DNA of 64,000 bases from Opisthocomus hoazin (lineage: Eukaryota > Chordata > Aves > Opisthocomiformes > Opisthocomidae): contig NC_134431.1 in assembly GCF_030867145.1 (NCBI RefSeq), positions 8,881,089 through 8,945,088 on the forward strand. The letters are read 5' to 3'. The position numbers were made by a program, and so were the translations under genes. The stretch's first letter is position 1; the number at the start of each line of letters is the position of its first letter. Below the pieces are notes generated by a model. That model was given only the letters and a program-made list of their open reading frames with translations. It was not told where the DNA came from and searched no databases. Of this stretch, positions 4,208 to 14,995 are shown piece after piece.

Positions 4208-4892
4208 TCAAGTATACATCATTTCTGCCATGTGAGACATTTTCTTGGGAATATATAAGTAGTATTCCATGTATCCCGAAAGATCTTCAATAGTCACGTC
4301 ATCCACAAAGGCTCGAGCTTGCTCAGAACAAGACCTAGGCGAACCTGACGAGGCCGTCCCACAAGGGGACCTGTTCTGACGAGACCGGGCATGGACTCCC
4401 AGGACGGCCTTCTCGCACTCTGACAGGACGCTCCGCAAGCCAGAGAAGGAGTACACTTCCATGGTTCGCCACTGTTTGCACTGGCATTTCTTGTCCGTAC
4501 AAGGGCACTGCTTGCCGTTGCTAAGCATGGATAAGGACTGGAAATCTGAGGTTTGGCTACAACGCAAGCTAGTTTCAAAGGATGAGGAGAGAGCCGGGCA
4601 ATCCTCTCTCGACTTCTCCAAAGGCTCTTCGGCAGTGAAAGCTTCCAAAGGTTCAGTTCTATCATCACTGGCCTCAAGGCGAGAACCGTGCCTGTCCTTT
4701 GTACCGTGCTCTGCTGTAACAAAAATGTCTGAACTGACGTTACTCTTCGAAGTGTCTGACTGGGTTTTGTGTTTCAGCTGGTTGTTGGCTTTCATGTTAC
4801 AATATGTAAACTTGGGAGGGTGCAGGACAGGAGACTTGGAGCGTCTGCGACGTGGGACTCTTGCCGATCCTCTGGAAGGCTTTCTCACACAC
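4208..4892 (-). CDS. OSER1-like coding exon 3
   Basis: The acceptor reads ccctgcag on the minus strand, and coding starts at 4892 with the last base of a split Gly codon. The exon holds the basic RRRRSKSP motif, the serine-rich middle, the four-Cys cluster and the C-terminal block of 44 residues identical to OSER1. The stop is TGA at 4210-4208. Confidence 0.92.
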
Positions 4893-7406
4893 CTGCAGGG
4901 TTGTAACACGTGAGCAAGGACGTAACTCCAGAATCTACACCATAGCTAAGTAAGCTCTAAAATATGGCTAAAAAACGTTTTAGATAATTTTTATTTTCTG
5001 CTTAAAAAATCAGGTGACTCATCACTTATAATCTCTGACAGAAACAGTGGAGGAGTCTGAAGAAATTTCAGCTCCCCAAAGGAAAGACACAAACCTCCCT
5101 CATTTAAAGGTACTTTCCCCTAAATAGTCTGTGTTAAGCAAATGATACTTTGTCATCCCAAACTGAACTGTAGTGCAGAACCTGGCTATCAGTTGGAGCT
5201 GCTGGCAGAATTGCACTGAATATCCAGGTACTGCATTACAAAAATAAAATAAGACAAGAAACAGGTAAGAAAGAGTTGCGAAGGTGTAAGACTTGAAGAA
5301 AAGGACTTCTGAGGAAATCAGGGGAAGAGAATGTTTTGGGGACCCTCTCCAAGAGAAGAGGCAATATTGGTTTTCAAGTCTTTGATGAAAGCCCCTTAAA
5401 AAACAGCATATCAAACAGCGATGCTAAAGTTTTATAATAGAAACGAGAGAAAATACATGTTGAAGCAACTAATCAACAACAACTTTCACTGGAAACGGTA
5501 TGCAAGTGTTAAATGTCTGAAACCAGAAACAGATGTACGGTGCGGTGAACGGTGTGCTTTACCCATGCCAGGCTTCCTTTGAGCAGACAGTCTGCTGCTT
5601 GGCTCCATCCATGGCTGCTCTTACCAGTGGTCTGAGAATCGTCCCGTCGCCCACAGACAGAGCTGCAATACATCTGAGTAAAAAGGGAAATGCCACGTTA
5701 CAGTAGTGCCTGCACGTACCGCTTCAGACGCCTAGGGTCAGCCTGTTCGCTTTAGATGCTTAGCTAAGACATTCAGGTTTGCAGCCTTGACTTCCACTGC
5801 AGTCGGTGGTTAGAAACAGGATATTACAGAGATTTATCCAACCACTCTTACTATATTGACCGCAGTCAAGTGTCTAAAGATAGGTGAGATGAAATGAAAG
5901 GAGGCTGAAATGCCCAGAGGCTGATGTCATGCCCTATTTGTGTACCAAAAGGACACGGTAAAGGAATGCAAACTCGGGCTCCAAATGTTGTTGTTAGACA
6001 ATAGTTGTTAGACTCCCACTCATCTGAAATGCAAAGTCAGGAACCCCGAGCAGCAGGCTGAGGAGCCGTCAGTGGAGCAGTGCACAAGGTACAACAGACA
6101 AGGACAGATTACTAATTTATTTCTCATAAAATTTCTCATTAAATTTCCCAGATAAACATGGGATCAAAAAAAACCACATCTGGCCCTGGAGGTCCAGACA
6201 ACAAACAAAAATGCCTCGGCACAAGAATCTGTATTTCTGACGGCTGTACGTGTGATTTGGAACACGGGGTAGGAAATCGTAAGAAATGAGGGTGAAATTC
6301 TAGCAGAAGAGCCCAAGTACTCTGCCCAAAGTTGGTCTTAAGGGATTAGTCACACGACTTGAGCTGTTCAAAACACATGCCGGCAAAACAAGACCTTTTT
6401 ATGCCTAAGACGATACCATTGGGAATCAACCAGAATTCCACGCAGTCTGTCACTGGTAATACACCAAAAGTGGTAACGCTTAATAAGCACAGCTTACTTG
6501 TCAGAGAACAGCTGGGGTTTTTCCCATGTTTAACAGAAGACCTCTTGAAGTAGGGGAAACAAGCAGCGAAGCAAAATATATTTTAACAAGCAGAGGAAGT
6601 AATGAGCTCGCCGTATTGATGGCTGTGGAGATGAACTCACAAGGCAACATGAATTATCAATGCAAAGCTCTCTCGTGTGTCTCTTGTGAACTCCCAAACG
6701 ACTGCAAGGGAACTACTTCACAGAGCATCAGGCTGCGTCATTTTACAAACTGCTGCTTTTGAGGAAGATGCTTATGCTCTGCATTATCGGTATACCCAGT
6801 GTGTTATGGAGTAAGTTTTTAGTATAAAAATGCCTGTAAGACATTTTACTCTACAAAAAGCCCCTGAAATCAGAAACGATCAGTGCTTATATTTAGCCTG
6901 ATGACTTCCAGTGAGACGAGGCTCTCCAGCTCACTACGAAGTGTTGGCGCTGCCCTTCAGACCCTTTCCAAGCACTACAGTAAAGGCTGGCACCGTGGCC
7001 GAAGACGTCAGTGTTTACGTGAAGGGACAAACAAGCTCGGTATCACACAGGGCGGCTTCGGTGGCGTTCAGTGCTTTGGGCGAGTCATTTCGCGTTTCCA
7101 CACAGCCACTGTGTAATTTCAGTCGGGCACCGCGCCGCAATTAGGCGGTAATCAAGTCCTGCTTTGCCAATTAGACCGTTCTAACGGCTGCATCTCATCT
7201 GAAGCGACGCGGCCGTCCCCTCTCGGGGAGCGAGGAGCCTTGCACCGAGCTGCGGCGCTTGTTTTGGGAGCCGAAGTGACAGAAAAGAGGTGCAAACGCG
7301 TAGTGAGGAACGGACGAACGCCAGCTTACCCTGCTGCGTCCACCCTCAGCTTTTTGAACGCCGTCTGCAGCCGCTCCTCCTCCTCCTCCTCAGCCTCCGC
7401 GTCCAT
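4208..7406 (-). CDS. OSER1-like: inverted paralogue of oxidative-stress-responsive serine-rich protein 1, complete
   Basis: Three coding exons on the minus strand (7406-7330, 5673-5563, 4892-4208) join in frame to 290 aa; human OSER1 is 292 aa. All junctions have GT and AG, and both introns fall at the same codons as in the plus-strand OSER1 (phase 2, inside a Gly codon). Landmarks in order: an acidic N-terminus followed by [11 protein letters not shown], the AALSVGDGT block at about residues 28-36, a basic RRRRSKSP stretch followed by LHPPKF, a CxCx4CxC cluster (Cys192, 194, 199, 201), and the invariant C-terminus ending MAEMMYT. The ATG at 7406 was chosen because it gives the same 26-residue first exon as OSER1. 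The middle (about residues 85-185) is strongly diverged. Retained introns and clean frames argue against a pseudogene or retrocopy. Function is presumably OSER1-like (stress-responsive, probably nuclear), which is inference. I know no established symbol for it. Confidence 0.9.
5563..5673 (-). CDS. OSER1-like coding exon 2
   Basis: This 111-base exon was found by eye between a pyrimidine-rich acceptor (ccctttttactcag) and a donor GTAAAG. It encodes a 37-residue stretch with ALSVGDGT and ends in EAWHG, matching exon 2 of OSER1 (ALSVGEGT and ending ETWHG). It is one codon shorter than the 114-base exon of OSER1, and phase is kept at both ends. Confidence 0.88.
5674..7329 (-). other. OSER1-like intron 1
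   Basis: The intron has donor GTAAGC at 7329 and acceptor AG at 5675-5674. It contains no gene. About 390 bases inside it from the first exon lie a FOXO-type core (TGTTTAC, 7012-7018) and, just before it, a CRE-like AGACGTCA. The half nearer the promoter is GC-rich. Confidence 0.75.
7012..7018 (+). promoter_or_regulatory. Candidate FOXO site with adjacent CRE-like motif
   Basis: TGTTTAC matches the FOXO core. The preceding bases 7003-7010 read AGACGTCA, one mismatch from the palindromic CRE. The pair lies between the two OSER1 genes' promoter and the OSER1-like intron. OSER1 has been reported as a FOXO-responsive gene, so the site is plausible, but a 7-base match also occurs by chance. Confidence 0.3.
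7330..7406 (-). CDS. OSER1-like coding exon 1
   Basis: This 77-base exon encodes 25 residues plus two bases of Gly. A run of glutamates is followed by [14 protein letters not shown], aligned residue for residue with OSER1 exon 1 ([14 protein letters not shown]). The donor is GTAAGC. The same frame stays open upstream of this ATG to another ATG at 7730, so an N-terminally extended form cannot be excluded. The shorter start is preferred because it matches the family length. Confidence 0.88.
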
Positions 7407-14600: not shown

Positions 14601-14995
14601 AGGAGAACTTTCCAGCTGCTGCTTCTCTAGTATCCAAACCAAGCTTAAAGACCACAGAGCTTTCTGACTTTGAATCTGTGTCCAAGCTGAACACGAATAA
14701 GCCGTGTGCGTGTGCAGATAAAGCCTGTCAGTGTAAACGATGGCAAGATATGGAAGTGTACAAATTCTCTGGCTTGCAGAACACCATCCCGTTGACACCT
14801 GATAGAAGAACAGTTTCTGAGGATCACTCCCAGTCTTTGCCATCAAGAACTCCCTCAAGTTCTCCACGCTCTTGCTCTGAGCAAGCCAGGGCCTTTGTGG
14901 ATGATGTGACTATTGAAGATCTTTCGGGATACATGGAATATTACTTGTATATTCCAAAGAAAATGTCTCACATGGCAGAAATGATGTACACCTGA
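11524..14995 (+). CDS. OSER1: OSER1, oxidative stress responsive serine-rich protein 1, complete
   Basis: Three coding exons (11524-11600, 13432-13545, 14308-14995) join in frame to 292 aa, exactly the human length. Landmarks in order: M-K-T-E-A start and [11 protein letters not shown] at 13-23, ALSVGEGT in exon 2, RRRRSKSP then LHPPKF early in exon 3, a four-cysteine cluster CxCx4CxC (Cys197, 199, 204, 206) followed by KRW, a serine-rich stretch, and a strongly conserved C-terminus with [20 protein letters not shown] ending MMYT. In the literature OSER1 (C20orf111, peroxide-inducible transcript) is induced by oxidative stress and linked to FOXO signalling and cell survival; its biochemical activity is not well defined. 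The cysteine cluster may bind metal, which is inference. This copy is closer to the human protein than the inverted one and keeps the human position upstream of JPH2. Confidence 0.96.
11601..13431 (+). other. OSER1: OSER1 intron 1
   Basis: Phase 2 intron with donor GTAAGT and acceptor ctctttcacag. No gene or recognisable repeat is seen inside; there is a short G-rich run near 12250. Confidence 0.85.
13432..13545 (+). CDS. OSER1: OSER1 coding exon 2
   Basis: This 114-base exon encodes 38 residues with ALSVGEGT and ends TWHG. The donor is GTAAGA. Its flanking phases equal those of the inverted paralogue. Confidence 0.93.
13546..14307 (+). other. OSER1: OSER1 intron 2
   Basis: Phase 2 intron from GTAAGA to the acceptor ctttccctggtag. 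No gene content is seen. Confidence 0.85.
14308..14995 (+). CDS. OSER1: OSER1 coding exon 3
   Basis: The largest exon carries the basic motif, the serine-rich middle, the cysteine cluster and the invariant C-terminus. The stop is TGA at 14993-14995. Confidence 0.95.

Follow-up and report, generated by a model that had tools for sequence, protein, structure and literature searches.

How a second OSER1 gene came to lie in the slot that in human is presumably occupied by the lncRNA OSER1-DT, divergent from the OSER1 promoter, is the question raised by a 64,000-nucleotide stretch of Opisthocomus hoazin DNA (the window). The window contains two intact DUF776 (OSER1-family) genes, arranged head to head on opposite strands, whereas a single OSER1 gene is known in human. 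The OSER1-like gene lies on the minus strand (7406-4208) and the OSER1 gene on the plus strand (11524-14995), and their three coding exons each encode proteins of 290 and 292 amino acids, respectively. Their features are as follows.

4074..4079, minus strand: candidate poly(A) signal of the OSER1-like gene (AATAAA or ATTAAA type), found by pattern search some 130 bp downstream of its stop codon
4208..4892, minus strand: OSER1-like coding exon 3 with stop (open frame, homology to plus exon 3; DUF776 positions 65-178), with a basic RRRRSKSP block, a Cys-rich CxC..K.CQCK.W block and a C-terminal tail that is the same in both copies
5563..5673, minus strand: OSER1-like coding exon 2 (flanked by AG and GT sites and homologous to exon 2 of the plus gene; DUF776 positions 28-65)
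7330..7406, minus strand: OSER1-like coding exon 1 (open in frame, followed by a GT donor and homologous to exon 1 of the plus gene; DUF776 positions 1-27), which carries the [14 protein letters not shown] block
11524..11600, plus strand: OSER1 coding exon 1 with ATG (gene model, alignment, DUF776 profile search)
13432..13545, plus strand: OSER1 coding exon 2 (same evidence)
14308..14995, plus strand: OSER1 coding exon 3 with stop (same evidence)
15093..15098, plus strand: candidate poly(A) signal of OSER1 (pattern search)

All four introns of the two genes are GT-AG introns, and both introns of each gene are in phase 2 and fall at the same alignment positions in the two copies. Exon 1 comprises 77 nucleotides in both, exon 2 comprises 111 (minus) versus 114 (plus) nucleotides, and the third exons are 52% identical. 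The minus copy reads from its ATG through 290 codons without a stop to the same C-terminus as the plus copy. The initial annotation had described two opposed, full-length, three-exon genes of these lengths with identical intron positions and phases, and the splice points and lengths match it exactly. In a rough scoring with approximate splice-site matrices, using the GT and AG sites of the window as background, intron 2 of the minus gene has a weak donor (3.9 bits, a score attained by 12% of the GT dinucleotides on the window's plus strand) and a weak acceptor (5.5 bits, attained by 6.5% of AG sites). Each of the remaining six splice sites has a score reached by at most 2.4% of sites.

OSER1, also named C20orf111 and Perit1, belongs to the DUF776 family (Pfam PF05604). 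The plus and minus proteins score 234.9 and 184.8 bits against the DUF776 profile (E-values of 1e-69 and 2.3e-54), so far above the curated cut-off of 25 bits that the match is not due to chance, and they cover nearly the whole model (1-179 and 1-178 of its 180 positions). Compared with a provisional human OSER1 sequence, the plus copy is 66.7% identical (194/291) and the minus copy 55.6% (158/284). A three-way alignment indicates that the C-terminal tail and the Cys-rich block of the human protein are kept in both copies, and the last 44 residues are identical between the two window proteins in the exon-3 alignment. The profile search found no further DUF776 match above the cut-off in the 1.48-Gb assembly, and neither copy has a further DNA match elsewhere in it. 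A weak match on contig C41 (20.9 bits, E 0.28) is below the cut-off, and no OSER1 motif was seen by eye in the three forward frames of the locus around it. Among the 14 control genomes of the family search a single match turned up, and it too fell short of the cut-off. Pattern scans of prokaryote and viral contigs gave 64 and 51 matches, none confirmed as a relative, and tblastn against phages found no relative, as expected for a vertebrate gene. The predicted structure of minus exon 3 (227 amino acids, two-row alignment) is uninformative (mean pLDDT 37), and no solved structural relative was found at E-values up to 1.

The gene order, established with provisional human probe sequences, is GDAP1L1 (minus), OSER1-like (minus), OSER1 (plus) and JPH2 (plus). 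The plus copy, between JPH2 and GDAP1L1, is where the OSER1 ortholog is expected, and this order places the extra gene in the presumed slot of human OSER1-DT. The proposed second protein-coding copy, here between OSER1 and GDAP1L1, is borne out by the DUF776 match and by synteny. Published reports list OSER1 together with GDAP1L1 in pig (PMC9632489), describe human OSER1-DT as neighbouring GDAP1L1 (PMC13227629), and give the naming rule for -DT lncRNAs (PMC9877250).

The two copies agree in 154 of 285 aligned codons (54% of residues), with pS of 0.707, pN of 0.276 and dN/dS of about 0.16, so that synonymous sites are near saturation. Differences fall at 149 third, 85 first and 84 second codon positions. 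Only five DNA matches connect the two halves of the locus, all of them on coding exons and extending at most 16 bp into any intron. As judged from these coding sequences, the copies are very old and have been under protein-level constraint. The constraint is uneven, with a pN of 0.46 in the middle region (plus codons 96-190) and of 0.018, versus a pS of 0.49, over the last 47 codons (2 nonsynonymous and 14 synonymous differences). The 89% DNA identity of the last 141 bp prompted a check for gene conversion of the C-terminal tail. Among conserved codons other than Met and Trp, 28/41 are identical in the tail versus 52/104 elsewhere (Fisher p 0.063), and the best 30-codon window (24/30 identical) was equalled in 243 of 5000 shuffles, so the case for conversion is borderline.

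These values bear on several explanations of the pair. The retained introns rule out a processed retrocopy and uphold the earlier proposal of an inverted, DNA-level duplication. Inverted duplicates are a known assembly error, and a false inverted or haplotype duplication might be suspected. However, 54% identity, near-saturated pS, low dN/dS and DNA similarity centred on coding exons mark the pair as neither a product of assembly nor a recent duplication. Each copy also occurs once in the assembly, with the expected neighbours on both sides, so an artefact of this one assembly is very unlikely, to the point of being negligible. Alternatively, the frame of the minus copy might still be open although the copy is a pseudogene or its transcript is not translated, as the weak intron 2 splice sites and the divergent middle would allow. 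The open frame and the excess of synonymous changes in its last 47 codons argue against this, as does a neutral simulation of 500 frames per divergence level. With indels, 0/500 frames stayed intact at 0.05 or more substitutions per site; when premature stops alone were counted, 47/500 were intact at 0.1, 4/500 at 0.2 and 0/500 at 0.4. We regard a pseudogene as improbable.

A more serious alternative is an inverted duplication specific to birds or sauropsids, with a faster minus copy that mammals never had, in which case OSER1-DT reflects ordinary promoter-divergent transcription. Mammalian CpG-island promoters commonly give rise to divergent transcripts, and among 284 columns private changes are most numerous in the minus copy (55, versus 21 in plus and 17 in human), as expected of a fast new copy. 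But a copy made after the bird-mammal split should share more with plus than with human, and in a comparison of 284 columns among three taxa (plus, minus and the provisional human OSER1 sequence, with no outgroup) the minus copy shares 17 columns with plus to the exclusion of human and 21 with human to the exclusion of plus. Measured against the same provisional human sequence, it joins the plus-human path mid-way, at 0.53 (bootstrap 0.43-0.63), and among 5000 bootstraps the attachment was below 0.4 of the path in 0.44% and below 0.25 in none. The near-saturated synonymous sites, which do not depend on the human sequence, also speak against a late origin, and we consider the bird-specific duplication doubtful. 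The data appear to fit better with a duplication no later than the bird-mammal split, followed by loss in mammals. The mid-way attachment would also result if, after a bird-specific duplication, the plus copy had evolved faster, and the excess of private changes in the minus copy could reflect relaxed constraint rather than age. The initial annotation had left it undecided whether an inverted duplication placed the gene here or mammals lost it. The inverted duplication stands, and mammalian loss is favoured by the mid-way attachment and the shared columns of this three-taxon comparison with its provisional human sequence.

The remaining features concern the candidate promoter.

7013..8635, no strand: CpG island (CpG observed/expected and GC profile), candidate shared bidirectional promoter
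7961..7966, plus strand: candidate splice donor for an OSER1 5' exon that would be non-coding, the top GT site in 7700-8700 (9.2 bits)

The island consists of two overlapping runs, 7013-8176 and 7998-8635. It had been described as common to both genes, which holds for the minus gene, whose ATG (7406) is inside it. The plus ATG lies about 3 kb downstream of the island, so a link to the plus gene would require a non-coding first exon, for which the best acceptor candidate is at 11484. In a motif scan of 7300-8150, an NRF1-like match appeared at 7850 and ETS-like matches appeared at 7803 and 7879, few enough that they could have arisen by chance in such a CG-rich stretch. The same scan found no TATA match in 7300-8150, and no FOXO-type motif there, though OSER1 is a reported FOXO target.

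The explanation we prefer, at a probability of roughly 0.6 and on sequence comparison, is that an ancient inverted duplication of OSER1 produced two coding genes around one CpG-island promoter region and that the minus gene was lost in mammals. This head-to-head duplication would have occurred at the DNA level and no later than the bird-mammal split. Both genes would be expressed in opposite directions from this region, probably under common regulation, and both products would be OSER1-type stress-response proteins. The terminal modules (the N-terminal [11 protein letters not shown], the basic and Cys-rich blocks and the identical C-terminal tail) are kept, and the diverged middle regions may mark subfunctionalised paralogues. 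In mammals, the outward half of the promoter would survive its lost gene as the lncRNA OSER1-DT. More tentatively, and short of probable, OSER1-DT may be a relic of another OSER1 gene, which stood head to head with the first in the amniote or an earlier vertebrate ancestor, with birds keeping a co-regulated pair of stress-response proteins.

According to one report, OSER1 is a FOXO target with roles in antioxidant defence and lifespan (PMC13232014, citing an earlier study), and mouse OSER1 shows oxidative-stress-related expression and an antioxidant role (PMC13232014). Human OSER1-DT has been linked to CNS traits (PMC13227629). Should birds have retained a second OSER1 under constraint in the OSER1-DT slot, both proteins would have to be counted when this pathway is compared between birds and mammals. 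In that case the origin of OSER1-DT would also become directly testable by alignment with the lost gene, and the few lncRNAs known to derive from lost protein-coding genes would gain a further member.

Among the literature matches listed, many of which concern the rice gene OsER1, no second OSER1 gene is described. Conversion of a coding gene to an lncRNA has precedent (Hezroni et al. 2017, PMC5577775), although OSER1 does not appear in the main text of that report. The locus may correspond to the GLCP type of that work (a gene lost in mammals, with an lncRNA at the syntenic position), in that a protein-coding gene of a non-mammal occupies the place presumed for OSER1-DT in mammals. On the non-mammalian side, the DUF776 coding gene and the anchor genes are present in this genome; on the human side, OSER1-DT is placed near GDAP1L1 by PMC13227629, and its exact position and strand are presumed. 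The pair also resembles bidirectional-promoter gene pairs, with divergent genes flanking one CpG-rich stretch that lacks a TATA match (7300-8150). Unlike in such pairs, the partners here are paralogues; the minus ATG (7406) lies in the island, and a first exon of the plus gene is predicted near 7961. The best reading is a retained ancient paralogue pair, itself not described in the literature surveyed but belonging to a known kind of system.

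The interval 4208-14995 contains two coding gene models in divergent orientation: OSER1 on the plus strand, the counterpart of the human gene, and a second family member on the minus strand, designated OSER1-like.

Coding exons of the head-to-head pair
7406-7330, 5673-5563, 4892-4208; minus strand; OSER1-like, 290 amino acids
11524-11600, 13432-13545, 14308-14995; plus strand; OSER1, 292 amino acids

All introns (two in each gene) are GT-AG and in phase 2, and their positions coincide in the protein alignment. By their sequences, both predicted proteins are members of the OSER1 family (Pfam DUF776, PF05604), with E-values of 1e-69 for the plus protein and 2.3e-54 for the minus protein. 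The initial annotation, which described an intact head-to-head pair with identical intron positions and phases, is confirmed on each of these points, and its splice coordinates proved exact. The donor and acceptor of the second OSER1-like intron (5563 / 4892, minus strand) are weak in a rough matrix-based scoring, and alternative or inefficient splicing is possible.

The assembly totals 1.48 Gb in 415 contigs, and the contig that carries the pair is 20 Mb long. A DUF776 family search of this assembly, which scores best candidates only (here nine of nine), yields seven matches. Six are the exons of the pair, each above the cut-off; the seventh, located elsewhere, falls below it (20.9 bits). The same search of 14 control genomes gives a single match, below the cut-off. 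A DNA search of the assembly with each third exon finds nothing beyond the exon itself and its partner. Among matches over the cut-off, OSER1 and OSER1-like are the only pair of the family found in the assembly. An assembly artefact is very unlikely, given how far the copies have diverged and that each was found once in this assembly.

The two proteins are 54% identical (154 of 285 aligned codons). Their genes are almost saturated with synonymous changes (pS 0.707), pN is 0.276, and dN/dS is approximately 0.16; of the 285 codons, 149 differ at the third position, compared with 85 at the first and 84 at the second. In simulations of neutral drift of the minus frame (500 per level, indels at one-tenth of the substitution rate), frames remain intact in 76 of 500 runs at 0.02 substitutions per site and in 0 of 500 at 0.05 or above. 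When only premature stops are counted, 47 of 500 survive at 0.1, 4 at 0.2 and none at 0.4, so a neutrally drifting minus copy would be expected to have a broken frame. BLASTN of one half against the other (E up to 0.01) detects five matches, each on coding exons and including no more than 16 bp of adjoining intron; beyond those 16 bp, no intron or promoter similarity was found. Near-saturated synonymous sites, exon-centred DNA similarity and a surviving frame together indicate, at the sequence level, that the duplication is old and that the minus copy has been retained as a protein. The paralogue pair is confirmed as real, old and intact.

The 3' ends of the genes are more similar. The last 47 codons have 2 nonsynonymous and 14 synonymous differences, and the final 141 bp (14855-14995, plus strand; 4208-4348, minus strand) are 89% identical as DNA. 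Within plus codons 258-276, 15 of 18 conserved non-Met/Trp codons are identical, though synonymous sites elsewhere are near saturation. Gene conversion or overlapping constraint is a possible cause, borderline in tests.

The age of the duplication was addressed with a three-way protein alignment, without an outgroup, that includes a provisional human OSER1 sequence. Identity is 66.7% for plus and human (194/291), 55.6% for minus and human (158/284) and 54.0% for plus and minus (154/285); among 284 ungapped columns, 137 agree in all three proteins, 54 differ in all, 55 unite plus with human, 21 minus with human, and 17 plus with minus. The main rival explanation is that the minus copy originated within birds, in which case it should attach closer to the plus copy. 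It joins the plus-to-human path at 0.53 (bootstrap 95% 0.43-0.63), and among 5000 bootstraps only 0.44% place it below 0.4 and none below 0.25. On the basis of these three sequences, the human one provisional, the mid-path position favours a duplication no later than the bird-mammal split, followed by loss in mammals. The inverted, DNA-level nature of the duplication proposed initially is supported by the retained introns; of the two alternatives offered with it, a copy that mammals never had or one that they lost, the latter is favoured.

A CpG island composed of two overlapping runs occupies approximately 7013-8635. It was annotated as common to both genes, which holds directly for the minus ATG, located inside it. 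With the plus ATG some 3 kb downstream, OSER1 is predicted to have a non-coding first exon within the island, and its link to the island depends on that exon. Candidate splice sites are a donor at 7961, the top-scoring one in 7700-8700, and an acceptor at 11484, the best shortly upstream of the plus ATG. A motif scan of 7300-8150 reveals an NRF1-like site (7850) between two ETS-like ones (7803 and 7879), but no TATA match or FOXO-type motif. These features fit a putative bidirectional promoter of the pair. The presumed 5' intron of OSER1 includes a CR1-like LINE remnant (approximately 9285-10420, identified visually). L016, a stretch that lies past the right-hand edge of the window and has its own coordinates, contains at 6272-6985 (minus strand) a long open frame that by eye looks like a CR1 reverse-transcriptase tail. 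Visually identified CR1-type repeats also suggest that the genome is that of a bird.

Both proteins have an 11-residue N-terminal block, an RRRRSKSP block and a Cys-rich CQCK block, their C-terminal 44-residue tails are identical, and the middle differs. The likeliest reading is that the pair would supply two predicted OSER1-type proteins, partly specialised, from one promoter region. Structure prediction is uninformative (mean pLDDT 37), and a PDB search with minus exon 3 (E up to 1) found no relative. In PMC13232014, OSER1 is cited as a FOXO target and reported to support antioxidant defence; mouse osteogenic cells in which it is knocked down have less glutathione, Sod1 and Cat and are more sensitive to H2O2. 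Chicken OSER1 is reported as down-regulated in broiler jejunum after amoxicillin, in an excerpt that does not mention two genes (PMC5390468). A second OSER1 gene is undescribed in the titles and abstract beginnings of the matches listed for OSER1 and its aliases, OSER1-DT, and the neighbours JPH2 and GDAP1L1. It may well be named already in automated annotations of public bird genomes.

Probing with provisional human protein sequences locates GDAP1L1 exons immediately to the left of the window, in minus orientation and with the first exon some 1.2 kb past its edge. JPH2 exons occupy 18900-48834 in plus orientation, and two of them carry MORN repeats (Pfam). The gene order is GDAP1L1(-), OSER1-like(-), OSER1(+), JPH2(+). 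We take the human order to be the same, with the lncRNA OSER1-DT where the minus copy stands here. A TRH-receptor gene adjoins JPH2 (59656-60129, minus strand, and approximately 3295-4260, minus strand, of L016); its first exon has thyrotropin-releasing hormone receptor as best PDB match (2.4e-102), and its exon in the window matches 7tm_1. We suspect that it is the TRHR3 subtype, which human is not known to have; if so, two genes of this interval are missing there.

Excerpted sources list GDAP1L1 and OSER1 together in pig (PMC9632489), describe human GDAP1L1 as a neighbour of OSER1-DT within 500 kb (PMC13227629), and explain the suffix -DT as an lncRNA with a bidirectional promoter common to a coding gene (PMC9877250). 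Conversion of lost genes to lncRNAs has precedents, and PMC5577775 estimates that it accounts for about 55 conserved human lncRNAs; OSER1 is not mentioned in its main text. Here a coding minus copy stands in the presumed OSER1-DT slot. The pair itself is an ordinary gene duplication, while its position in this slot leads to a precise, verifiable proposal for how a mammalian lncRNA arose.
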